Positions 3,501 to 64,000 of a stretch of 64,000 nucleotides of DNA are shown here, piece by piece; within the stretch, counting starts at the first letter, position 1, and every line of letters starts with the position of its first letter. The notes beneath the pieces were generated by a model. That model saw nothing but the letters and a program-made list of their open reading frames with translations, searched no databases and was not told the origin of the DNA. The position numbers and the translations under genes were made by a program. The stretch is from Auricularia sp. M13 (Eukaryota; Basidiomycota; Agaricomycetes; Auriculariales; Auriculariaceae), in NCBI GenBank assembly GCA_037042915.1, contig CM073196.1, positions 1,426,001 through 1,490,000 on the forward strand, written 5' to 3'.

Positions 3501-5767
3501 ATTCCCTGTCCCAACCCCATCCTCAAGCGCTCGCTCAATCCCAGTCTCACTCTCATGCTCATTCTCAATCCCAGTCCCAGTCCCATCCTCATTCTCATGT
3601 CCCCCATCCGCTATCAGTACACATGCAACCGCAACCGCAACCGCTACCGCCTCTCTCTGTGTCTACGCCCGTCTCCCAGTACCGCCCCAACCATCGTAAT
3701 TCCGTTTCGTCGCTTTCGATCGCTTCCAACCACACGTCCACGACGCCCGGCAGTCTTGCTTCCTCGCTTCCGATACACGACGAGTCGTTCCCGCCGCTGC
3801 AGCATCAGCATCAGTTCTTCGCCCCTGCCGCCGTTCAGGCTCCTCCTCCCGCTCGGCTGCCCGTTCAACAACCCCAACCGCAGACTCCGTCTGTCCGCTC
3901 GTCCGTCGCTGCCGTCGTTGCCCAGTCGCCCATTGGTGCGCAGCGACAGCAGCAGCAGCCGAGACGCCCGTCCGTTTCGCATACCCGCCAGAGCACGCTG
4001 TCTAGCTCGTTCATCGGCTCGGCTGGGTCTGTACCTGAGTCGCCTGCCGTTGCACCTCGTGAGTGTCATTTTATTCAAAGCGTTCTTGGGCATGGATTTT
4101 GACCCGTGTACGATGCAGATGTCGTCGCCCGTCCGCCTCAGGCGCTTGCTCCTCCGCCTGCGCCTGCTCCGCCAGTTCCTGCGCCTGTATCTGCTCCTCC
4201 TGCTCCCGAACCCGTCGCCGCTTCCGCTGTCGCCCCTCCTCCACCCGCCGCCGCACCTCCTCCTGAGCCGGCTACGCCTGTCCTTTCGGCAAGCGAGTTC
4301 CCCGCGCTGCCGGTCTCTGCTCCTGTCGAGGCGCGGCCGCTTCCTGCGTTCATTGCTACACCGTCCACGCCGAAGCTCGCGACGCCGACGCCCAAGACGC
4401 GCAAGGAAAAGAGGAAGGAGGAGAAAGAGAAGAAGGACAAGGAGAAAGAGAAGGTCAAAGACAAAGATGTCGCTGTGACTCCTACTCCTTCCAAGACGGC
4501 GGCTAAAACCTCGGCGCCGGTTTTGACCATACCTTCGACGCCGGCGAAGGCTGTTGCGGCTACGCCTTCCAAGTCCACCAAGAAGGCGGAACCTTCTACT
4601 CCAGTGGCGGCCGAGTCCAAGAAGAAAGCTGCTGCTGCCACCGCCGCTCCTGCTCCTGCTGCTGCTGCTCGTTCTGAGTCCCCTCCCCCGGTCGTTGTCC
4701 CTGCGCCAGCAAAGCCTCAGCGCAAGGAGAAGGAAAAGGAGAAGGAGAAGGAGAAGGAGAAGCCTGCGCCAGTTCCCGCGCCTCCTGCGCCCGAGCCAGA
4801 AGCCCCGGCGCCGATGGTGTCGAAAATGCCTAAGAAGTTCAAGCCGGCGACCAAGGTCGTCAAGGTCCGCGAGGAGACCGCCGAGCCCGAAGACGGCGTC
4901 GAAAGCCAGCCGGCGCCAGACCGTCCGACACCTACGACGGACGACGACATGAGCGCGTTCCTGCGCGGCATCCCTGGGTATAGCGTCAAGCGCGCGACAC
5001 TCGCTGAGCTCCTGCGGTCTCTGCAAGATCGCGAAATCGAGCTCCGCGCATTCTCGTTCTTCAGCCCGTCGACGTTGACGAGCAAGTCGCAAACGCCATT
5101 AAGATACGGTCCCTTGGTGCATGCGCTCTCTGCCTTGTCCGTGGGCGGAGGATCGTTCGCCAACACGCTTCCCTCTGGATCTATTGACACCGCCGTCAGC
5201 TCGTTCCAGCAACTCCTCGAGACGCTCACGCAGACGATTTCGGATCTGTTGCGTTTGCTGCCGCGGACGACGTGGGACGATAGCTCGTCGTTCGACGGCG
5301 TGCTGCGCGACATGCTCAAGGGCGACGACTTCTTGGACGAGAACGGCGAGGGGCGTGGCACGCCTGCGCCGCCGGCCAGCGAGGCGCAGGAGGGCCGCGA
5401 GGACGAGGTGACCGTGCTGACGCAGGCGCTGGAGAAGCGCGCGCGGTGGATGGAGGTGCAGCTCGCCAAGCTGGAGGAACTGCACCGCGACATCAATACC
5501 GCGGCTGCGCGCGCTGTGCTCTCGCTGAACGACGCCGGCTGGGATCGCATTGCGCCGGACGAGGGCCGGTATGACCACCGGCCGGACCTCTTCCTGCCGC
5601 ACCAGACCAAGACCCTACGGCGGTACGACGAGCTGACCGCGGCCGCTTCGCGGTGGACTATCCCGGAGCTGGAGGCCAAGTTGGCGGAAGAAAAGCGGAG
5701 GGAGGCGCTCGCGGAGGCGTCGCTCAAGGCACTCATGAACGTGAATACGCAGCTGCTGCAGAACTGA
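554..5767 (+). CDS. NOT4: NOT4-type RING/RRM ubiquitin ligase of the CCR4-NOT complex, very large form
   Basis: Nine exons (554-661, 718-798, 878-990, 1043-1193, 1248-1582, 1642-1697, 1767-3281, 3375-4058, 4119-5767) join in frame to about 1,563 residues. The first domain is a C4C4 RING with CPLCMEQMD, PCPCGYQ, CGFCWHHI and CPACRREY. A basic coiled-coil linker (RLKRLNQQKKAKERERKE) follows, then an RRM beginning NQVYVVGLGPRLAKEE with FGQYGKISKI, then a CCCH-like segment (CSQPGCLDLHDWGDERDC). This is the NOT4/CNOT4 order. The rest is a long low-complexity tail (poly-Gln/His at 2245-2330 and 2950-3220, Ser-His-Gln repeats at 3480-3610, Lys/Glu-rich at 4390-4760) closed by a folded-looking C-terminal block of about 280 residues with helices and a coiled coil. 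Yeast and human NOT4 are about 575-715 residues, so this is more than twice as long. An ATG inside a possible upstream exon cannot be excluded. Confidence 0.9.
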
Positions 5768-14832: not shown

Positions 14833-15969
14833 ATGACTTCGACAAAACTTGACAGTATTGTTCTCTTTGGCGATTCGGTCAGCTGCGCTACTGGATGATG
14901 CTCGTTGGAAGCTGATTCAATGAACGTGTGGTGTGCATAGATCACGCAGGGCGGATGGGAGCCTGGAGGTACGACCGCACCAAGTCGGCTGTATGCACTG
15001 CGATGGGCTGCTGATACTCTCCCCATCAGGCTTTGCCCAGAAGCTCGCATGTGAGTAGATTTGATTGAATTCTCGCATCTGCGGATAGAGCCTCACATGG
15101 ACTCGCGTCGTAGATGTGTATGCGCGCAGGCTGGACGTGATCAACCGTGGACTCAGCGGCTACAACTCGGAATGGGGACTCCCCGTCCTTGAACAGGTAT
15201 ATTCTATGATAACTTCCTCGTATACAGTCCATCTAAAAGGCATTGGGCCGGAAGATAGTAGCTAAGAAGAGCGAGCAGCCGCACGTCCCCAAGCTGCGCC
15301 TCCTCACGATCTGGTTCGGCGCAAACGACGCGTGCCTGGAGCAGTCGCCGCAACACGTCCCGCTCGACCGCTTCCGCGCGAATCTGACTCGCATGGTGAC
15401 GATGCTGCGCGACGAGAAGAGCGAGTGGCACCACCCGGACGCCAAAGTGCTCTTCATCGCGCCGCCGCCCGTCGACGAGGCCGCGCGCTCGGCCGATCTC
15501 GCGTCGCGCACCCCTCCGCTGGCGCCGGACCGTAAGTGGGAGACGACCAAGGCGTATGCGGAGGCGGTGAAGCAGGTCGGCACGGACCTCGGTGTGCCCG
15601 TCGTCGATGCGTGGACAGCCATCTGGGACGCCGCGGGCAACAAGGTCGAGAACCTCAAGATGTTCCTTCCAGACGGCCTGCATCTCAGTGCGCAGTCCTA
15701 CGCGGTAAGCACGAAGGAATGCGTGACTGGGACGAGCGGGTGCTGAAGCTGAAGTGTCACGGTTGCAGATCGTGTACGACCTCATCCTCGAAGCCATCTC
15801 GAAGAACTGGCCAGAGCTGCACTATAACAAGTTGCCGTTTGTTTTTGCACCGTACGTCACGTCTTCGTCAGTTTGAGGCGGCCAATCCTGACCTGGACAC
15901 AGATGGAGCGAGATTGACTGGGTGGACCCAATTCCAACGCTTCAGGCGGGCCACTTCTCCGTTCCTTAG
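14833..15969 (+). CDS. IAH1: IAH1-like GDSL/SGNH esterase (isoamyl acetate-hydrolysing type)
   Basis: Seven exons (14833-14877, 14941-14968, 15030-15050, 15114-15196, 15240-15704, 15769-15851, 15903-15969) join in frame to 263 residues. The protein starts MTSTKLDSIVLFGDSITQGG: the catalytic Ser sits in the GDS block close to the N-terminus. The SGNH blocks follow in order: NRGLSGYNS (block II Gly), WFGANDACL (block III Asn) and PDGLHLSAQSY (block V, Asp-x-x-His). It ends WSEIDWVDPIPTLQAGHF, close to the usual end of Iah1. No signal peptide is seen, so it is probably cytosolic. Family members hydrolyse acetate esters and other short-chain esters. A decayed tandem copy follows directly. Confidence 0.9.
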
Positions 15970-16299: not shown

Positions 16300-17062
16300 C
16301 ATGTGGGTATGTACAGTTCCGGCTCTCACATCCTTGGATGAGTCGGCACTCCGGTCGTAATGGCGTACGCGTGCTGGTTGGATGTGATCAAACGAGGCCC
16401 GCCGGCTACATACAGTGTACACCACAGAATGGCCTGGAAGATATGTAGTAGCCAAAGAGATCGAGCAGCCATACATCCCAAGCTGCGCCTCACCATCTGA
16501 ACGACATGTGCCTGGAATAGTCGCCGCATCGCGTCCCGTTCGACCGTTTCCGTCCAAGCCAGACCCGCATGGTGCCGCGCTACGAGTGACACCGTCCGGA
16601 GGCCAAAGTACTTACTCTTATTGGCGCCGCCACCCGTCGACGAGGCCTCATGTCGTTCACGCCGCCGTTGCCCGCGGATCGCATATTCGAGACGACGAAG
16701 GCGTACGGTACTACACGAGCACCATAAAGCACATCAACGCCGGGCTCGGCGTGTCCGCGTCTACGCATGGACGGCCAGCTGGAACGCCGCGGGTGATGAC
16801 GTCGATAACCTCAAGACATTCCTCCCGGAAGGCCTGCCCCTCAGCGCAGAGTCCTACCTGGTGAGTCCAGAGGAGATATGCTAGAAGGTACGGCCGAAGC
16901 TGAAGTGTTGCAGATCGTGAACGAACTAACTCATCCTCAAAGTCAAATGGGACAACTGGCCAGAGCTAAGCCCGGCCAAGGTGGCGTTCGTGTTTCAGCG
17001 AACGTCGTGTCTTTGGCTGACCGAGGTGGACGTCGCAGATGGAGCGAGATCATTGCCTTGTG
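16300..17062 (+). pseudogene. Decayed tandem copy of the IAH1-like esterase
   Basis: This stretch matches the preceding gene in order but in broken frames. Recognisable pieces are AYACWLDVIKRG (cf. VYARRLDVINRG), VVAKEIEQPYIPS (cf. IVAKKSEQPHVPK), LAPPPVDEA, WTASWNAAGDDVDNLKTFLP followed by EGLPLSAESY (cf. DAAGNKVENLKMFLP, DGLHLSAQSY), and a last block WSEIIAL (cf. WSEIDWV). The first exons with the catalytic GDS block are not found. The block V His is replaced (GLPLS instead of GLHLS), the GAND block is lost, and several frameshifts and stops interrupt the frame. It is a non-functional duplicate; splice signals before the last blocks are still partly recognisable. Confidence 0.85.
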
Positions 17063-53662: not shown

Positions 53663-53860
53663 TTTTTTTTTTTTTTTTTTTTTGGTGGAGCGTCAGCTTA
53701 GACCGCGGCCACATAGTGGTCCGGTTTTAAGCCTTTCTGCAACAAGTTGTCAGAGCTGAGAAACGGGTGTTATTCCGCTTTTGACGAGTCGACTCCTCCC
53801 GGAGAAATCGCACTTAGCACGCCTCATTGAGGCAGTGTGGGGCTTGGAATGAGGGTCTTT

Positions 53861-56636
53861 TTAACCAACGCCTCGGGCGGTACGCCGTCCTGTACCCACT
53901 AAAACTCCGGGATATTTCTTTTTATACTCAGCCAGATATGGAGCGGGGTCCATGTTGTTACGCCACGTGCCGTGTCGTAGGTGGGAGTCGAGTGCTCGTC
54001 TCCCGAATTTGTACTTATTGGAGAATTGGTGATCTAGGATAACCCGCCGCTTAATTGCGGCTTTCCAGCGCAGCAGTACCTGCCCCGGCGTCAATCTTCG
54101 TGCCGGGTCGCTGTTGTGCTCTATTCGGAGCTCGCATCTCATTTTCCAGATCAGGAAAGCGGATTCGGAGATTACTATCCGAAAGGCGCGTGCCAGGCCG
54201 GCGCCTCGTTGTCCCCACATGCCCGCTGGCCGTATCGTCGCGCATCCCAGAATCGTGCCCAGGTTGATTTCGACCGTGATGCACTTGTGCCGCAGGAACT
54301 CTCTTGTCATCCGCCACACCGTTGCTTGGCCCGAGTCCGGGCACTCGAGGAGGATGTGCTCGAGTGATTCCACGACATCGCAGGTTGGGCAACGTTCGCG
54401 GGCCTGCCACGGCTGGGGCATTTTGGCGTAGTACGCACCGACTTTGTGCGCATTGTGTAGTCCTTTCCATAGGAAGACGCGGGCTGGCTTCGAGATGTCT
54501 CTATCCGCCGTCCCGCGCCAGAGCTGTTCCTGCGATGGGCGCGGTTCTCCTGCCTCGCTAATGTCTCTGACGACTCGCTCTATCATCTGGGTTGTCGCCT
54601 GGCGTGTCGAGCCCTGGGCTGCCTTTGTTGCCTTGATGCCTCTGTGCGCATCGCATTGGCGCATGTTCAGGATGCTGACTCCTGGCACGTCAAATTCGGC
54701 CCACTGGCGTACGTCCAGGTCCAGCGTCGGGGCCCACAGTACTGCCGTCTGTGCTCTTTGCACATTGTCTCGTATTGATCTATCACTGTTCGCCATCCTT
54801 TTGGGCACGTATTGGAGTGTCGTTTCCGCGTGGCGCGCGCGCAGCGCTGCCGTCGCCGCGCGGAGCGCGGGCCCCGCTGTCGTCAAATCGCACCATCCCC
54901 TCGCTTCATGGCTGTGGCGCCGCAGCGTGAGCGCCTGTACGACCTGTTTGCATGGCATCTTGATCTCCAGCGGGGCGTCCCTCGCTGACGTTTGTACGAC
55001 CGCGCAGACTGCCAGTGCCATGCATCGCACGAATGAGTGTGTGGGACCTGGGCACCTATAATATAGGTCTGCGTGCTCGCCGTTGGGAAAATGTGCCGAG
55101 AATGCGCTCTCCGCGTCTGCTGTGTCCGCCATCTGCATTGCTCCGCATATGATGACCTGGATTCCTGGTCGTCGCGTGCCTGGTGGCTGGCGGGCTCCTG
55201 CCCGTTCTCGGATCTGGGCCTGCGGTGCCAGCTTGCCCAGGGAGAATACCTCCCCGAATACTCGTCCCATGTCTTCTGGGCGCTGCGCTGTCGTTGCAGA
55301 CGAGTCGAAGGCAATGGCCTTGCCTTGTTGCAGTGCCGAGTCTCGAGACTGGGCCAGGGCAGTCCATGCCGTGGGGCTTGGAGCCTGGTCGACAGTCGAT
55401 AGGTTCCATTTTTCGGCGATGTCGCTTAGTAACCCCTCCGCAAGGGATTGGCATCTGTGGGGGTTTCTGCATCCTATTGCTCTGTCCTGTTTGCAGTTGT
55501 CGCACCGGCAGCGTCTACTTTCCGTGTGGTCTGCTTCATCGAGCTCTGCGATTTCCTCGAGCTCTGCCACCGTGCGCACTAGGTGGACGCTGCGTAGGCA
55601 GCGCAGCGCTCCTCTGCGGCTGTGCATGGTAGAGACGTTGAGCATGGCCGGGTGCGCCCAGAGCGGCGCTGATTCTCGAATGGCGAGCGGGAGAACTGGG
55701 GCGTCGACTATTACCCCGTATTTCGCCGCCGTCTTGAGCATTTGGCGTAGCATGAGGGGGAGGCGCTGTACGTTCGGTCGCCATGCTTGGTAGAACGGGT
55801 TTATGCGTTGTTCGGGTGGGATCCGTTCACGCTGTTCCGCGACTATTGCATCGCTAAAGATAATGTCCGCAAGCATTGCCCATGCTGGGCGCTTGGATGG
55901 TGGTTCCATGTACGCGCTGATCCACGCGAGGTGCTGCGCTTCGTTTCGTTCCTCTACGTGCAGCAGGTTCAGGCCTCCGTCTTCTCGTCGGCGGCGGAGA
56001 GTCTCCATGTTGATTGGATGTTTTTTGGTACCCTTCCACAGGAAGTCGAGTGTCATTTTATCCAGGCTACGCTCCACCGAGAGCGGCATGCCTTGCGCCG
56101 CCGCAAGGTATTGCGAGTGTCCTCCGATGATTGCTTGCGATATGATGCTGCGTCCGTTGAGGGACGGTCTGGAGCGTTCCCAGCTCTTCAGGACGTTCGC
56201 GAGTTTGTCGAGCATCTTGGACCAGGCGCCTACGACTCCGACTTCATTGCCAGGCCACGCACCTAGGATTCTTGTTGGTTCCCCGTCTCGGGCTATTCGT
56301 ATGGTGTCCGGCAGCACCGGGCCCGTGGGGTGTAGCTTCCGTGATGTTATCACCTGGTTCCTATACTGTGCGGTCCCCATTGGGATTACTTCCGTCTTTT
56401 GGATGTTAAATTTTGCTCCAGAGGCTCTGCACCAGTCGTCCAGGATGGCGCAGAGGCGGTCGTATGAGTCCGTCGACGCTAGGTATGCCGTCGTGTCATC
56501 GGCGTACAGTGTGGCGATTAATTTCTCTGTTAGCCCAGGTATCCTCAGGCCGCTCAGTTCTGATCTGCGCAGCATGGCCGACAGGGGTTCGATCGCGAGA
56601 TTGAACAGAAGGCACGATAATGGGTCACCTTGACGT
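53861..56636 (-). CDS. LINE ORF2 polyprotein: reverse transcriptase C-terminal half, RNase H, zinc region
   Basis: An open frame with no stops from element A to the stop at 53861-53863. In order: RQGDPLSCLLFNLAIEPL (RT palm entry), TLYADDTTAYLAS (catalytic YADD), GAKFNIQKTEVIPMG, thumb and connection segments (GRSIISQAIIGGHSQYLAAA; FLWKGTKKHPINMETL; GGLNLLHVEERNEAQHLAWI), a Cys-rich patch CRCDNCKQDRAIGCRNPHRC, a degenerate-looking RNase H region, and the terminal zinc segment CPTCDVVESLEHILLECP with PGVLVGTG at the end. The YADD is intact. The N-terminal fingers and any endonuclease are not in the window. It is not functional as it stands because element A splits it, but the absence of stops suggests the LINE was young when it was hit. 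Confidence 0.9.
56632..56636. repeat. Predicted left target-site duplication of LTR element A
   Basis: The five bases GACGT lie directly before the LTR start and belong to the LINE reading frame. If element A inserted normally, GACGT should follow its far LTR outside the window. This is a prediction. Confidence 0.4.
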
Positions 56637-57491
56637 TGTCACGGCAGAGCGCTCGTCACTCGCCGAGACCGACGCCCAAGAGAGGAGAGAAGGACGAGGA
56701 AGAACGGACAAGCGGTACAATTGACCAGACCAAACCTAGGGTACACGCATCTACACCCCACAACCTATATACCCATCCCCAAGGTCCACTGATCCGGTCC
56801 ATGGTGATCCCGGAGCTAAAGGGTCCATCCACCATCGTCTCCCATAGTGCTAGCACTCTACCACACCTCCAGTCGAACAGGGTCCGAGACAGGGCGAAGG
56901 TGCCGAGGTATGCCACACATACACACACCCACCGAGTGCACGGACCGAGAAGGAGGGCACCTCCCGAGTACACGGGGCGAGCGCCGAGCTGTTGAAGCCA
57001 CGGGCCGAGGGTCCGAGGATGTAGCCGAGCTTGTACCAGGTGATGATAACCGACCTACTATCCATCCGAGGGGTACCGTACCGACGAGAGGTCCAATAGA
57101 GGCGTTTCCGACCCTCCGAGGTTGCCCAGGGTGACCCACCGAGTCCGCCCGAGGTCCAAAGGGGGTTCTGGAGCCTGCCCCGAGCACCACAACGCCCATA
57201 TCCGACGCATACAGCGAGGGGGGAGCTGCCGAACATTGGTCCGAAGGTGAGAAGCCTCCACCGAGCCGAATTGGGGTATGCACCGAGGTCGTCTCACCCC
57301 TAGGTAGGTAGAGAGCGGCGTGCAGATCATATCCCGAGTTGAACAGCCCGAGGTGTATAACTCTGGCCGAGTCTCCGTCCGAGGGTAAGCAGTGCGCCGA
57401 CTGTATGCAGCAGCGACCGAACGCTCGGCGAAGCGGCGTAAAACCCGCGGGCAAGCGGACAGAGCTTGCGACGGCCGTGATGACCGCAACA
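56637..57491 (-). repeat. LTR of element A (inverted)
   Basis: 855 bp that is the reverse complement of the two element B LTRs, with clear divergence: about 80% similar by reading translated frames. In this orientation it starts TGTCACGGCAGAGCG and ends CCGCAACA, with TG...CA ends. The internal TATA box appears reversed near 56765-56772. Pentamers that read CTCGG in B appear here as CCGAG, as expected for an inverted copy. It is followed by the inverted polypurine tract (TAACCCCCCCTTCAAG at 57491-57506). Confidence 0.9.
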
Positions 57492-57659
57492 TAACCCCCC
57501 CTTCAAGCCGCGAGCCGAGGGAGCGTCCGAGGGAGGGAGGCGCAAGGCGGGGAGGGCGAAATGACGGGCCGAGGGCGCCGCGGACTGAATGGCCATTCAA
57601 TTCGCGGTTTGACATAAAGCTTCGGCCTGTCGTTTTGCTTCTTGTCCTCATACCACCAC

Positions 57660-59075
57660 CATGCCCGCGCCTGACCGCGTTGACCACGTCCGCGACGACC
57701 AGCCCCACAGCGGGGCGCCCGCCTGGGTGCCCGTGTTGGGGACTTTGTCCTTTCTCGCGCCCGGCCCGAGGATCTGGAGGCCCGTGTCGTCGTGCTCGGC
57801 GACGCCGTGAATCGCATCGTCGCCGCCCTCGTCGACCCTGGCATCCCGTCCGCGCACCGCGACTTTGCCCGCCACCGTCAGCTCGAGTTCGAGACGGAGC
57901 GCCGCCTGCTGCTCGCGCTGCTGCCATCCGCCGCGTCCTGGCCGATAGTCTGGCCGCGTGCTCGTCGCCGTCGGATGCCCTGCTTCTGCCGTCTATGACC
58001 GTGTCGCCGTCGCCGTCTGACCCGGTCCGACCACTGGCGTTGCGTCTGCCGCCGCTACCTTCTGACGCTCCGTTCCGCCCGCGCTGCTCGACGTTGAAGG
58101 TTCTGCCCGGGCACCCGCTGTATGCTGAGTGCGAGGAGCTTGCGCCGTCACCGTCCGCTGTTGCTCCGAGGCCGCGCCGTCCTGCACCGGCACCGTCATC
58201 GTCGCGACCATCGGGGCCGCCTCCTCCTGCGCGCTCGGCGCCAACGCCTCGTCCGCCGCGCTCGTCGTCTGCTGTCCGCGCGCCGCCTGCGTCTGCTCCG
58301 CCAGCGTCGGCTCTTCTCCACCACCCGCGTAGGCCGAGGACTCCCCCGCCCGGTGTGTACGAGCGCCCGGCACTGCGCGAGCGGCGTCAGGCGTGGGACA
58401 ATGCGTTTGCCGACGGCCTGATCGACCGCCACGGGGTCCCGACGTCGGTGAGCACTTCGTTCTGCTGCTGCTGGTCTCGGGGTATTAACATTCAGCAGCC
58501 ATGCAGCCGATGCGTGGACCGCGACGACGAGTGCCTTCCGGCGCAGGGGCTGGCGGCGTGCCTCGAGTGCTCGCGCCGGAAGGTGAAATGCTCGTGGAAG
58601 GACCTGCGCGCGCCACTCGGATTCGGGACCAAGACCGGGAAGGGTTCCAAGGCGCCGATGTCGGGCACGCGTGCGCCGCCGTCTCGTTCCCGCGCCGCGT
58701 CCGTCACCTCCCAGGCGCCCGCCTCGTCGTCGTCCCGTGCGTCGAGATCCCGGGCCGCGAAGGAGAGCTTGCCGGCGCTGCCCATTGAGGCGCCGGGCGA
58801 GCTTGGGGTCGCAGCGCCCGCACTGCACCCCAACTTCATGGGCCAGTTTGCGGCGGCGTGGGCGCTGGTCACTGGGGTGCGGCCGCGAATGCGCAGCCGT
58901 CGGCGGCGCCGCGCCTTTGCGCTCGGCGATGCGTCGGGGCACTCGCTTCGCAGCGGGTACGGCTACCCGGTCATCGCGCTCCTCCGTGACACCTGGGGCG
59001 GCCTCCTCGCGCGCATCCGCGCCACCTGAGTCGGGTCCGGAGGAGGAGGAGGAGGAGGCGATGGACATGGATTAG
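57660..59075 (+). pseudogene. Zn2Cys6-like cargo gene of element A, frameshifted
   Basis: Starts MPAPDRVDHVRDDQPHSGAP. A one-base loss near 57737 breaks the frame before FVLSRARPEDLEARVVVL; another indel near 57935 separates LLLALLPSA from LAACSSPSDALLLPS. A long Pro/Ser/Arg-rich region follows (SDAPFRPRCSTLKVLPGHPL), then RRQAWDNAFADGLIDRHGVP, an intron of about 50 nt at 58447, and the cysteine motif PCSRCVDRDDECLPA joined to CLECSRRKVKCSWKDL: C-x2-C-x6-C-x8-C-x2-C-x6-C. The end is Ser/Arg-rich with NFMGQFAAAWALVTG. The spacing fits a fungal Zn2Cys6 binuclear cluster, but the basic half (CSRRKVKC) comes second, not first. Homologous to the copy in element B. Role unknown; DNA binding is a guess. 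Confidence 0.75.
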
Positions 59076-59669
59076 ATGTTTCGGGTCGGCCGTCTTGTAT
59101 ATAGTTTTCTTGTCGCAATGGGCGCGTGTATAGAATATAAATAGTCTTCTTGAACCTGTGATCGACGTGGGGGTCCGAACAAGCGCCAAACCGAGTGGAC
59201 TCCTTCCTGTGGGTCCGAGAGTTTGGTTCCAGTCTTCGGCGTGTCCATCCTGGCGTGGCATCTTCCGACCCAAGCATCCTGCAGCCGAGTCCAAGGTCCG
59301 AGAGAGGTTGGATTCCAGTCCTGTACTGTGTCCTGTCGGTCCGGCTGCGCCTGCGCACCGACCAGTAAATGATGAGGGAAATAAAGAGCGTGTGAGAATC
59401 GCCCTCGGCGACTGTGATCCGCGCAGCGAACGAAGTTACTGGTCATTGGAGCCTCGGCACGAGCCCGGGACATCGTTAAACGTCGTACATGTCGTTCAGC
59501 CAGCGGCCGGTGGTTCGTGACGTCCTCGGGACGAGGATATTCATATCTCGGGCGTGGCGGCGCGTGCATCCAGTCCATCCGGATCACGGCCGAGGCCCCA
59601 TCTGCCGATGGCGTGCGAGAGGGAGAGGTGTAACAGCTGTGGCTTGAGCGCGCAAGTCCAGACAACCGG

Positions 59670-59674
59670 GGCGG
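59670..59674. repeat. Target-site duplication of element B, left copy
   Basis: GGCGG directly before the TG of the left LTR, repeated directly after the CA of the right LTR at 63986-63990. A 5-bp duplication fits LTR retrotransposon integrase. Confidence 0.85.
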
Positions 59675-60532
59675 TGTTGCGGTCATCACGGCCGTCGCAA
59701 GCTCTGTCCGCTTGCCCGCGGGTTTTACGCCGCTTCGCCGAGCGTTCGGTCGCTGCTGTATACAGTCGGCGCACTGTTTATCCTCGGACGGAGACTCGGC
59801 CAGGGTTATACGCCTAGAGCTGCTCACCTCGGGATATGATCGACGCGCCGCTCTCTACCTGTCTAGAGGGTGAGACGACCTCGGCGCATACCCCAATTCG
59901 GCTCGGTGGAGGCTTCTTCTCCTCGGACCAGGGTTCGGCAGCTTTCCCTTCGCTGTATATGTCGGATATGGGCGTTACGGTGCTCGGGACAAGCTCCAGG
60001 ACCACCTTTGGACCTGGGGCTGACTCGGCGGGTCACCTTGAGCGGCCTCGGAGAGTCGGGAACGCCTCTATTGGACTTCTCGTGGGTGCGGTACTCCTCG
60101 GATGGATAGTAGGCTGGTTATCATCGCCTGATACAAGCTCGGCTACACCCTCGGACCCTCGGCCCGTGGCCTCAACAGTGCGGCGCTCTCCCCGTGTACT
60201 CGGGAGGTGCCCTCCTCCTCGGTCCGTACCCTCGGTGGATGGGTGTGCGTGTGTAGCATACCTCGGCACCTTCACCCTATCTCGGACCACGTTCGACTGG
60301 AGGTGTGGTATGGTTTTGGCACCATGGGAGACGACGGTGGGTGGACCCTTTAGCTCCGGGATCACCCTGGACCGGATCAGCGGACCTTGGGGAGGGGTAT
60401 ATAGGTTGTAGGGTGTAGATGCGTGTACCCTAGGTTTGGTCTGGTCAATTGTACCGCTTGTCCGTTCTTCCTCGTCCCTCTCTCCTCTCTTGGGCGTCGG
60501 TCTCGGCGAGTGACGAGCGCTCTGCCGTGACA
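59675..60532 (+). repeat. Left LTR of element B
   Basis: 858 bp, TGTTGCGG...CCGTGACA. It contains about 19 CTCGG pentamers on the plus strand and one CCGAG, concentrated in the first 600 bp (the U3 part), and a TATA box at 60399-60404, about 130 bp before the end. A 191-residue open frame (59836-60411) is probably incidental, since it spans promoter sequence. Confidence 0.9.
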
Positions 60533-60934
60533 TAAGACCAAACCTTCACTCCCTTTCGACCGACGCTCATCCCTCTTCTCCTTCCCCACACGGCCGCGGC
60601 GTCCTCTCGACTACTATCGCCCGTGTGTCAAAGCCGACGACCTCATCAGGCCGGCCTCGCCGTCAGCGAGCCGCTGTGCACCGGCCGAGGTCCATTGGCA
60701 CCCGCATCCTTCTCCCTCGGAGTCGCCACCCACCCCGAGAAGCGAGGCGTACGCTGTCAAGGCCCTATCTCCACCCCATCGGCCGCAGCGCATGACCAAG
60801 CCCTTGGCACAGCCTCTCCACACGGTCGCGCGGGATACCCCGATCCCGCCCTCGGCGACCCCTGGTGCAGCACCTCCTTCGCACCTTCTACCCCGGCGAG
60901 TAAACCGAGACACTCGCCTACGCCCAAAATCCCA
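60533..60934. other. Element B internal 5' segment
   Basis: About 400 bp after the left LTR, present in B and presumably in the unseen part of A. GC-rich and proline-codon-like in several frames, but I recognise no gag motif or zinc knuckle. It would be the place for a primer-binding site and packaging signal. Confidence 0.45.
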
Positions 60935-61533
60935 CCCCGGTTGTCTGGACTTGCGCGCTCAAGCCACAGCTGTTGTACCTTCCCCTCTCGCACGCCATCG
61001 GCAGATGGGGCCTCGGCCGTGATCCGGATGGACTGGATGCACGCGCCGCAACGCCCGAGATATGTATACCCTCATCCCGAGGACGTCACGACCCACCGGC
61101 CACTGGCTGGACGAACTGTACGATGTCTCACGACCCTCCGAGCTCACGCCGAAGCTCCGGCAACCAGTAACTTCACTCGCTGCGCGAATCCCAGCCGCCG
61201 ACGGCGGATCCCACACGTTCCTTATTTCCCTTATCACTTACAGGTCGTGGCGCGGGCGCAGTCGGACCCACAGGACACAGTACAAGATTGGAATCCCACG
61301 GCCCTCGGACACTGGATTCGGCCGCAGGAGACATACATTAAACGGCACCCCATCTAGGATGGACGCGCAGGCGGTCGGAACCGAACCCTTGGACCCGCAG
61401 GGAGGAGCCCAATTATTCTCACACGGACCCGGACCCTCGCCTCGGTCGCAAGTTCAAGAAAACTATTTATATTTTGTACACGCGCCCATTGCGACAAGAA
61501 AACTACATACAAGCCGGCCGATTCGAGCATCTA

Positions 61534-62980
61534 GTCCATATCCATCGCCTCCTCCACCTCCTCCTCCTCCTCCTCCTCCGGACCCGACTCAGGTGGCGCG
61601 GATGCGCGCGAGGAGGCCGCCCCAGGTGTCACGGAGGCGCGCGACGACCGAGTAGCGGTACCCGCTGCGAAGCGAGTGCCCCGGACGCATCGCCGAGCGC
61701 AAAGCGCCGTCGCCGACGGCTGCGCATTCGCGGCCGCACCCCCGGTGACCAGCGCCCACGCCGCCGCAAACTGGCCCATGAAGTTGGGGTGCAGCGCGGG
61801 CGCTGCGACCCGACCTCACCCGGCGCCTCGATAGGCAGCGCCGGCAAGCTCTCCTTCGCCGCCCGGGACCGCGACACACGGGACGATGACGATGCGGGCA
61901 CCTGGGACGTGACCGACGCGGCGCGGAACGAGAAGGCGCGCGCGCGCGCCCGATACCGGCGCCTTGGAGCCCTGGCCCGTCTTGGTCCCGAACCCGAGCG
62001 GGGCGCGCAGGTCCTTCCAAGAGCACTTTACCTTCCGACGCGAGCACTCGAGGCACGCCGCCAGCCCCTGCGCCGGAAGGCAGTCGTCGTCGCGGTCCGC
62101 ACAACGGCTGCACGGCTGCCCAGTGTCAGATATCACAACCCGCGCTGGACGATGGTAACTACTCACCGAGGTCGGGACCCCATGGCGGTCTATCAGACCC
62201 TCCGCGAACGCCCGGTCCCACGCATGTCGGCGGTCGCGCAGAGCGGGTTGCTCCTCCACGCCGGGCGGGGGTGTCCGTGGCCGACGCGGGTGATGCAACA
62301 CAGAGCCCAACGACGGCGGCGCAGGAGCGGGCGGCATCCGCACAGCAGACGATGAGCGCGGCCGACGAGCAGGCGGCGCCGAGGGAACAGACGGAGCGGG
62401 CGCCGACGGTCGGGACGAAGACGACGCTGGCGCAGGACGACGCGGCCGAGGAACAACAACCGACGGCGGCGGCGGCGCGGACCTCTCGCACTCGGCGTAC
62501 AGCGGGTGCCCGGGCGGGATCTTCAGCGTCGAGCAACGGGTCCTGAACACGGCATCCGACGGCAGAGGCGGGAGGCGAAGCGCCAGCGGACGAACTTGCT
62601 CGGATAGCGCGGCGGGCACGGACAAAACGGAGACAGGAGAGCGTCCGCGGGCGACGAGCAAGCAGCCAGACCGAGAGCAAGAGCACGGGCCGACGGCAAC
62701 AACGAGAAGAGCAGGCGGCGCTCGACGCCGAACTCCAACTGTCGGTCGCGGGCCAGGTCACGGTGCGCAGCGGGGATGCCAGGGTCGCCGGCGCGGCGGC
62801 GATGCGGTCCATGGCGTCGGTCAGGACAGCGATGCGGGCCTCCATATCCACGGTCCGGGCGCGCGAGAGCACAAAGTCGGGCAGCACGGGCACCCAGGCG
62901 GGTGCTCCGCCACTGCGCTGGTCGTCGCGGGCGTCGTCTGCGCGGTCTGCAGAGGGCATGGTGGTGGTAAGAGGACAAGA
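61534..62980 (-). pseudogene. Zn2Cys6-like cargo gene of element B, antisense and frameshifted
   Basis: Read on the minus strand from ATG near 62960: MPSADRADDARDDQRSGGAP, AWVPVLPDFVLSRARTVDME and ARIAVLTDAMDRIAAA are in one frame. A one-base deletion before DPGIPAAHRDLARDRQLEF shifts the frame, and another indel separates LAACSSPADALLS from VRPLALRLPPLPSDAVF. The same Pro/Ser-rich region follows, then RRHAWDRAFAEGLIDRHGVP, a short intron and the cysteine motif PCSRCADRDDDCLPA with CLECSRRKVKCSWKDL. The frameshifts fall at other places than in element A, so the two copies decayed independently. The Cys motif is fully conserved between the copies. Transcription from the element LTR would be antisense to it. 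Confidence 0.75.
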
Positions 62981-63105
62981 AGCAGATTGACAGGCCGAAG
63001 CTTTATGTCCAACCGCGAACTGAATTGCCATTCAGTCCGCGGCGCCCTCGGCCCGTTGTTTCGACCTCCCCGCCTTTCGCCTCTCGCCCTCGGACGCTCT
63101 CTCGG

Positions 63106-63127
63106 CTCGCGGCTTGAAAGGGGGTTA
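63106..63127 (+). other. Polypurine tract of element B
   Basis: The purine run GAAAGGGGG followed by TTA lies immediately before the right LTR. It is the expected primer site for plus-strand DNA synthesis and fixes the element orientation as plus. The equivalent in element A is inverted next to its LTR. Confidence 0.65.
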
Positions 63128-63985
63128 TGTTGCGGTCATCACGGCCGTCGCAAGCTCTGTCCGCTTGCCCGCGGGTTTTACGCCGCTTCGCCGAGCGTTC
63201 GGTCGCTGCTGTATACAGTCGGCGCACTGTTTATCCTCGGACGGAGACTCGGCCAGGGTTATACGCCTAGAGCTGCTCACCTCGGGATATGATCGACGCG
63301 CCGCTCTCTACCTGTCTAGAGGGTGAGACGACCTCGGCGCATACCCCAATTCGGCTCGGTGGAGGCTTCTTCTCCTCGGACCAGGGTTCGGCAGCTTTCC
63401 CTTCGCTGTATATGTCGGATATGGGCGTTACGGTGCTCGGGACAAGCTCCAGGACCACCTTTGGACCTGGGGCTGACTCGGCGGGTCACCTTGAGCGGCC
63501 TCGGAGAGTCGGGAACGCCTCTATTGGACTTCTCGTGGGTGCGGTACTCCTCGGATGGATAGTAGGCTGGTTATCATCGCCTGATACAAGCTCGGCTACA
63601 CCCTCGGACCCTCGGCCCGTGGCCTCAACAGTGCGGCGCTCTCCCCGTGTACTCGGGAGGTGCCCTCCTCCTCGGTCCGTACCCTCGGTGGATGGGTGTG
63701 CGTGTGTAGCATACCTCGGCACCTTCACCCTATCTCGGACCACGTTCGACTGGAGGTGTGGTATGGTTTTGGCACCATGGGAGACGACGGTGGGTGGACC
63801 CTTTAGCTCCGGGATCACCCTGGACCGGATCAGCGGACCTTGGGGAGGGGTATATAGGTTGTAGGGTGTAGATGCGTGTACCCTAGGTTTGGTCTGGTCA
63901 ATTGTACCGCTTGTCCGTTCTTCCTCGTCCCTCTCTCCTCTCTTGGGCGTCGGTCTCGGCGAGTGACGAGCGCTCTGCCGTGACA
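63128..63985 (+). repeat. Right LTR of element B
   Basis: 858 bp; I found no difference from 59675-60532 when reading both line by line. Same CTCGG array and TATA box (63851-63856). Confidence 0.9.
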
Positions 63986-64000
63986 GGCGGGGTTTTGGGC
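63986..64000 (-). mobile_element. Element A resumes after element B
   Basis: GGCGG (target duplication copy) then GGTTTTGGGC. The reverse complement continues the element sequence seen at 60923-60941 inside B, as expected if A carries on past the nested insertion. Only 15 bases are visible. Confidence 0.75.

Follow-up and report, generated by a model that had tools for sequence, protein, structure and literature searches.

How has a long terminal repeat (LTR) element that lies inside an inverted relative, and in which no enzyme of its own could be detected, moved so recently, and what does it carry? The question is raised by element B, near the right end of the 64,000-nucleotide stretch of Auricularia sp. 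M13 analysed here (the window, C4:1426001-1490000, where C4 is contig CM073196.1), which we compared with the 52.1-Mb assembly of 14 contigs to which it belongs. The account at which we arrive is that B is a recent nested insertion of a non-autonomous family that would be primed by its own RNA in the manner of Tf1, would be mobilised by a gypsy helper and carries an antisense gene whose substitution pattern points to selection; taken as a whole, we hold this account to be very probable.

A recent element nested in its relative

Element B has the hallmarks of an LTR retrotransposon, with direct LTRs ending in TG...CA, a 5-bp target-site duplication, a primer-binding site (PBS) after the 5′ LTR and a polypurine tract (PPT) before the 3′ LTR (Table 1). 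The LTRs (59675-60532 and 63128-63985) are identical at 858 of 858 positions and GGCGG stands at each end, which bears out the original prediction, made from the window alone, of identical LTRs with these termini and duplications and of very recent movement; the predicted PPT and LTR TATA box were also located. B falls short of an autonomous Ty3/gypsy element, which would possess gag and pol with reverse transcriptase (RT), RNase H and integrase (IN): a Pfam search with nine open frames (eight from B, the ninth from its neighbour A) returned no enzyme domain, in line with the earlier suggestion of a family without enzymes of its own.

The flanks of B had been taken for an inverted element A, and this is confirmed by a match of 56637-59674 to 60932-63985 at 83.7% identity over 3,072 columns (90.6% in the LTR part). 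That A is a copy of B's own family stands in part, as A belongs to the family but represents another subfamily, the portion within the window being 81.6% identical to B. Element A continues at C4:1489986-1490388, beyond position 64000, and ends with its LTR at C4:1490389-1491244, so that the outcome which would have spoken against a nested insertion did not arise; its two LTRs (855 and 856 bases) show 0 mismatches and one 1-nt gap. Because A resumes past B and terminates in an LTR of its own, followed by its GACGT duplication, B sits in A, and A in turn in the reading frame of a long interspersed nuclear element (LINE). Empty sites are found for both. The joined flanks of B, minus one GGCGG, match eight paralogous family loci with 0 mismatches (L023, L025-L029, L031 and L032) and further loci with 1-7, while the site of A is empty in LINE paralogues that are about 70% alike, with the 5-bp duplication counted once (for example C1:4683006-4684195, with flank matches 4683006-4683600 and 4683598-4684195). 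A 7-kb palindrome or a DNA transposon with long inverted repeats, which the extended inverted match might at first suggest and which the original prediction had set aside for a nested insertion in opposite orientation, is ruled out for practical purposes by the separate duplications and empty sites of B and A, by the resumption of A beyond B and by the single occurrence of elements like B elsewhere in the genome.

Element A is 99.3-99.7% identical to L023, L026-L029 and C11u1; it is as young as B, and both insertions are recent. Copying of B from A itself is unsupported, since three indels private to B are unmatched in A.

The layout of self-priming

PMC10085805 and PMC4600332 describe, for Tf1/sushi elements, an RNA whose 5′ end is the complement of a PBS directly past the LTR, together with a helix between U5 and sequence flanking the PBS. 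Element B has the layout of this type of self-priming, as judged from complementarity: an 11-nt stretch of its LTR pairs with a PBS that begins 2 nt past the LTR, and the TATA box starts 34 nt before that stretch. In the copy table of the family, whose 29 rows are single copies or units of arrays, the complement is exact over 11 nt in 28 rows and extends over 10 nt in the remaining one, and the exact TATA box is likewise present in 28/29. Shuffled LTRs reached the observed length of complement once in 2000 trials for B, once in 2000 for L037, a copy of the second family described below, and in 0/2000 for L040, a gypsy copy to which we return. U5 of B can also form a 12-bp helix, the second, with sequence 12 nt past the PBS (0/1000 shuffles); the counterpart of this helix in the second family measures 11 bp in both L038 and L039 (0/1000 each) and 7 bp in L037 (50/1000). 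Predicted RNA folds include the primer duplex, with z scores of -3.0 for B and -3.8 for L037.

Covariation was assessed in an alignment of L040 with nine dependent copies, comprising 8 distinct rows in all. Four of the 11 primer pairs carry changes on both sides, a number that 0/500 shuffles attained, and no primer pair is broken; 99.3% of cells are paired, against at most 48.6% when the alignment is slid. The second helix contains one unpaired cell.

Several points weigh against this reading and temper it. The Tf1/sushi pretzel has two further helices, of which B has one strong, the other, a short helix beside the primer, being at chance level (586/1000 in B; 940-947/1000 in three copies of the second family). 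One of five covariation measures, that of further pair types, was reached by 62/500 shuffles. Every both-sided change comes from L040, so that together these changes amount to one comparison and not to many events. The transcription start, the splicing and the expression of B are, moreover, all predicted from DNA.

Transfer RNA is the commonest primer among LTR elements, and if it were used here the complementarity between LTR and leader would be due to chance. An ARAGORN scan of the window gave no tRNA gene, and no support for tRNA priming was found, the genome's tRNAs not having been compared with the PBS. Since an exact complement with the same geometry recurs in both families and in L040, with four both-sided changes, we regard tRNA priming as extremely unlikely and favour self-priming.

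An antisense gene under purifying selection

The interior of the family contains, on the strand opposite to its own transcript, a gene for a predicted six-cysteine protein. Its ratio of non-synonymous to synonymous substitution (dN/dS), measured in 10 copies against L031, is 0.14-0.27 in the gene frame, as against 1.00-1.57 and 1.93-2.56 in the other antisense frames. Six-frame windows (L031/L004 and L023/L018) place the minimum in the gene frame throughout the coding part, interior bases 991-2310. Exon length differences among L031, L030, L004, L018 and L008 are all multiples of 3, while the introns of L018 and L008 differ by 1 nt and the broken copy C11u1 shows two 1-nt differences. Splice sites of the form GTRAGY...CAG (GTGAGT, GTAAGT or GTGAGC, with CAG) occur in 29/29 rows. 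By this pattern of substitution the gene is under long-term purifying selection. Two comparisons of interior bases 1-990 revealed no consistent coding frame, dN/dS values of 0.26-0.34 there resting on few changes or falling in differing frames, and none was seen in the leader of B.

The gene is intact in 7 of the 29 rows (L004, L008, L018, L019, L030, L031 and L034). A loose criterion of length would give 10/29, including B, L005 and L021, which we do not count because they lack the conserved C-terminus. On the strict criterion the gene is thus broken in 22 rows, A and B among them, although homopolymer indels were counted and some of these frame changes may stem from homopolymer errors in the assembly. 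As the gene is broken in copies that have moved, A and B included, a move does not depend on it in cis.

The case for selection on a functional gene is weakened by these broken copies and by the opposing sense frame, which shares codon positions with the gene and whose dN/dS is also lowered (0.34-0.52 against 0.16-0.40 for antisense in L031/L004). The frame could accordingly be a by-product, either a captured fragment of a host gene or a functionless open frame of the kind that GC-rich sequence generates in number. We consider this very unlikely, given that the dN/dS signal is frame-specific, with the opposing frame always the higher, that exon lengths keep the frame and that splice sites are conserved. 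A separate host gene as the origin was sought and none was seen among 77 matches, of which, as assigned by eye, 74 lie at known element places and 3 at two diverged pieces (C12:482641-482976 and C7:2809842-2809997). The genome search for the family also lists these pieces, at C7:2809698-2810614 and C12:482387-482969, as diverged (69-70%) segments of a related interior that are perhaps remnants of a further family.

As to what the selected gene encodes, Zn_clus (PF00172, fungal Zn(2)-Cys(6) proteins) matches below the curated cut-off of 21 bits (18.1 for P0001 and 16 for B, in B at the second half of the motif), and P0003 of the second family does not match it, which counts against a zinc cluster. 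The antisense proteins of both families fit, by eye, the spacing CX2CX6CX5-12CX2CX6-8C of the Zn(2)-Cys(6) proteins. The motif tentatively suggests a product that binds DNA or chromatin and acts in trans.

A second family with the same primer site

Pattern searches uncovered a second family with an LTR of 480 bp, in which the first 13 bases past the LTR are as in the family of B (family 1). It has 25 PBS sites, plus one more, and three copies were read (L037, L038 and L039). This family encodes a chromodomain protein in sense orientation (Chromo at 36.5 and 38 bits, cut-off 25.1) and an antisense six-cysteine protein (P0003), which has little in common with that of family 1 beyond the cysteine motif (E 0.008). 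In windows of L037 against L038, the chromodomain frame has a dN/dS of 0.22-0.5 and the antisense windows one of 0.29-0.44; some opposing frames reach values just as low (0.25 and 0.3, for example), for which reason selection on both genes is less firmly shown than in family 1, and comparison of the close pair L037 and L039 gives a less clear picture. L038 has the longest distance from PBS to PPT among the family-2 copies read and consists of family 2 with a 1.85-kb insert (L038:2211-4057).

A candidate helper

We sought a partner with an identical PBS (CATAAGACCAAACCT, at most 1 mismatch) and rejected this route: of 59 sites 58 are exact, and these are the 33 PBS of family 1 and the 25 of family 2. 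The 59th, C11:1708864, adjoins a family-2 PPT/LTR tip and family-2 proteins, and the pattern read backwards gave 5 sites. A further search was made with the junction of PPT and LTR tip. Of its 108 sites 100 are listed, and GGGGTTATGTTACGG is the reading at 29 of them; in 14 cases out of the 29, paired by eye, an Integrase_H2C2 match with the same orientation precedes the site by about 1.3 kb. This is a lower bound, as 150 of 208 candidates were scored, giving at least 150 Integrase_H2C2 matches.

One copy of this kind, L040, was read. It has 284-bp LTRs at 99.6% identity and a CCAGC duplication. An upstream frame of 423 aa may be called gag from its position alone; the pol frame matches RT, RNase H and IN, and its best solved relative in the Protein Data Bank for RT/IN is Ty3. 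Over 12 nt the PBS of L040 is the complement of a stretch of the element's LTR, again with a 2-nt spacing, GACGCTC is kept after the PBS, and the PPT/LTR tips nearly equal those of B's family, while the primer sequence is different. From these likenesses a gypsy family of the L040 type is likely to be the helper of B's family. Against it stand that L040 is tied to B only through the tips and the R-U5-PBS layout, that its primer is unlike B's, and that its pol frame gave no Chromo match (E 0.01).

The enzymes might instead come from some other gypsy family. The Integrase_H2C2 matches imply many gypsy elements, and seven exact GGGGTTATGTTGCGG sites, missed by the longer tip search, lie outside known copies (C3:2480719, C5:3290349, C6:2526735, C7:3257567, C8:3402979, C9:749774 and C10:2313999; perhaps diverged or further families). 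The primer difference and the eight tip sites beyond the 100 listed point the same way. Set against this are the 29 listed sites reading GGGGTTATGTTACGG, with 14 of them past an Integrase_H2C2 match, and the 2-nt spacer and GACGCTC common to L040 and B's family, and on balance we judge another helper to be unlikely, with the L040 type remaining the preferred candidate.

Copies in the genome

All 26 LTR pairs compared (25 from the copy table, and that of A) differ by 0-2 mismatches and 0-4 gapped bases; among the 25 there is no mismatch in 13, one in 8 and two in 4. The count leaves out L004, L019 and L032, whose 3′ LTR is incomplete, and C3u2, which was not compared, and pairs within arrays may not be birth pairs. 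Target-site duplications of 5 bp enclose 20/20 single copies with both LTRs and 2/2 arrays, as well as A. Divergence between A and B is about 9% for the LTR and about 18% for the interior; they represent two subfamilies, each recently mobile. Because LTR pairs are near-identical yet interiors across subfamilies are only about 81-92% identical, several old lineages have moved lately.

Identity between B and L023 is uneven, at 95-96% over 1801-2100 and 66-83% over 1351-1800 from the start of B. L030 (C10:3547630-3554035) combines an LTR at 94.5% to B with an interior at 83.2% and is probably a recombinant between subfamilies. Both patterns suggest recombination between RNAs. Two tandem arrays with shared LTRs (L035, L036, L024 and L025) were found, one of four units at C3:2500596-2513596 and one of three at C11:2666624-2676985, each enclosed as a whole by a single duplication (GTGGC and CCAGC, respectively), as expected if one insertion had been enlarged by unequal exchange between LTRs or had been inserted as a multimer.

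Some further observations concern individual loci. The C11 array unit L024 contains an insert of about 0.84 kb (~3906-4742) at which the interior matches end with an overlap of 7 bases. In L004, L019 and L032 the 3′ LTR matches end at 448, 535 and 504 bases, the copies being truncated or interrupted. At C3:4074388-4084567 there are four family LTRs at 94%, three of them spaced 2.6 kb apart, with no PBS match and no PPT match in the pattern searches; duplication of a segment, together with a solo LTR, may account for this. Elsewhere in the window, 15244-15865 and 16430-17013 form a direct repeat at 67% identity, and 6878-7000 matches 53790-53913 in inverted orientation (about 124 bp, 73%).

Table 1 Features of element B and its surroundings, in window coordinates
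Feature	Position	Strand	Basis
Element B, complete non-autonomous LTR element, 4,311 bp	59675..63985	+	self-alignment, genome copies
5′ LTR of B, 858 bp	59675..60532	+	self-alignment
TATATAGG box (TATA box) in B LTR, LTR offset 723	60398..60405	+	
Self-primer AGGTTTGGTCT, predicted RNA 5′ end (start of R)	60432..60442	+	complementarity, shuffles, covariation
U5 arm of second helix, TGGGCGTCGGTC	60491..60502	+	
Leader of B, directly past 5′ LTR	60533..60930	+	about 93-99% identity among subfamilies
PBS AGACCAAACCT, complement of 60432-60442	60535..60545	+	
Post-PBS arm of second helix, GACCGACGCTCA	60558..60569	+	
Antisense gene, 459-464 codons in intact copies; in B disrupted by frame changes	61531..62959	-	ends read by hand
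CCT microsatellite; on other strand, acidic C-terminal tail of antisense protein	61548..61579	+	
Six-cysteine motif CX2CX6CX8CX2CX6C	62023..62112	-	coordinates by hand
Predicted 51-nt intron, GTGAGT...CAG	62116..62166	-	coordinates by hand
PPT GAAAGGGGG, followed by TTA and 3′ LTR	63116..63124	+	
3′ LTR of B, 858 bp	63128..63985	+	self-alignment
Target-site duplication GGCGG of B	left 59670..59674, right 63986..63990	.	self-alignment, copy table
Element A, left part (3′ LTR 56637-57491 and interior), interrupted by B	56637..59674	-	self-alignment, genome copies
Element A resumes (GGCGG being the duplication), reaching C4:1491244	63986..64000	-	genome copies
Target-site duplication GACGT of A	56632..56636	.	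second copy directly after C4:1491244
LINE reading frame cut by A (RVT_1; weak zf-RVT)	53861..56638	-	Pfam, LINE paralogues

Discussion

Nested LTR elements are ordinary, and self-priming, antisense open reading frames (ORFs) and the presence of an accessory ORF in non-autonomous LTR families are individually known. In our searches of open PubMed Central papers we found neither their combination as seen here (no gag-pol, an intron-bearing selected gene and a matching gypsy family) nor anything joining self-priming, a non-autonomous LTR retrotransposon and a helper. LARD elements are large non-autonomous LTR elements with a long interior devoid of enzymes and are presumably moved in trans; the interior of B's family differs in holding a gene under purifying selection. 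Compared with Tf1/sushi elements, B shares the self-primer complementarity and the helix between U5 and post-PBS sequence, known here from sequence, but none of its frames matches gag, pol or Chromo, and B has no detected RT by which to place it in a phylogeny.

A parallel to the antisense gene is provided by the additional antisense ORFs listed in a review (PMC7264820) for Boty/brtn of Botrytis, maize Grande, rice RIRE2 and Silene Retand; brtn is placed in BcGypsy1 by PMC8365987. These elements likewise have a conserved antisense gene near the 3′ LTR (the comparison with brtn and gene23 is by description only). There the gene is an addition to gag-pol, whereas the family of B has no detected gag-pol and its gene has an intron and a six-cysteine motif. 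TelKA2n of bdelloid rotifers is also a non-autonomous LTR family keeping an accessory ORF, with most of pol missing, but that ORF is env-like and is not called antisense in the accessible part of PMC5408684. Arrays alternating LTRs and interiors are described for Cassandra of plants in PMC7215508; Cassandra carries 5S RNA sequence, in contrast to the family of B with its two arrays (4 and 3 units), each within one duplication.

We propose the following mechanism. B is a recent non-autonomous insertion into A, itself recently placed in a LINE. The RNA of B would begin about 34 nt past the start of the TATA box, and its first 11 nt, whose complementarity and covariation are described above, would pair with the site 2 nt past the LTR, while the second helix would join U5 to post-PBS sequence. 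The RNA 5′ end may then be cut and prime reverse transcription, as in Tf1, with enzymes supplied by a self-primed Ty3/gypsy family exemplified by L040, a step to which the similarity of the tips points. The antisense, intron-bearing gene would yield a zinc-cluster-like six-cysteine protein, on which the substitution pattern indicates purifying selection, and this product might act in trans on the transcription, packaging or targeting of the family. Its antisense position could allow the intron to survive passage through the sense RNA.

A broader and more speculative picture, which we regard as possible but not probable, is that at least two non-autonomous families share a self-primer and little else, each with a convergent antisense six-cysteine regulator and family 2 with a free chromodomain protein in addition, as parasites that bring a transcription or targeting factor of their own and rely on a helper for enzymes alone. 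If true, a selected frame that is unneeded in cis would allow trans-acting selection between selfish copies to be tested directly.

The functions of antisense genes in LTR elements are as yet unknown, according to PMC7264820, and it is on the persistence of such genes that the present family bears. Because no gag-pol was seen, intact and broken copies are similarly young and a candidate helper was found, the role of the antisense gene can be studied here separately from gag-pol. The matched difference in primer and PBS between the candidate helper and its dependents likewise puts self-priming to a natural test in an organism other than fission yeast.

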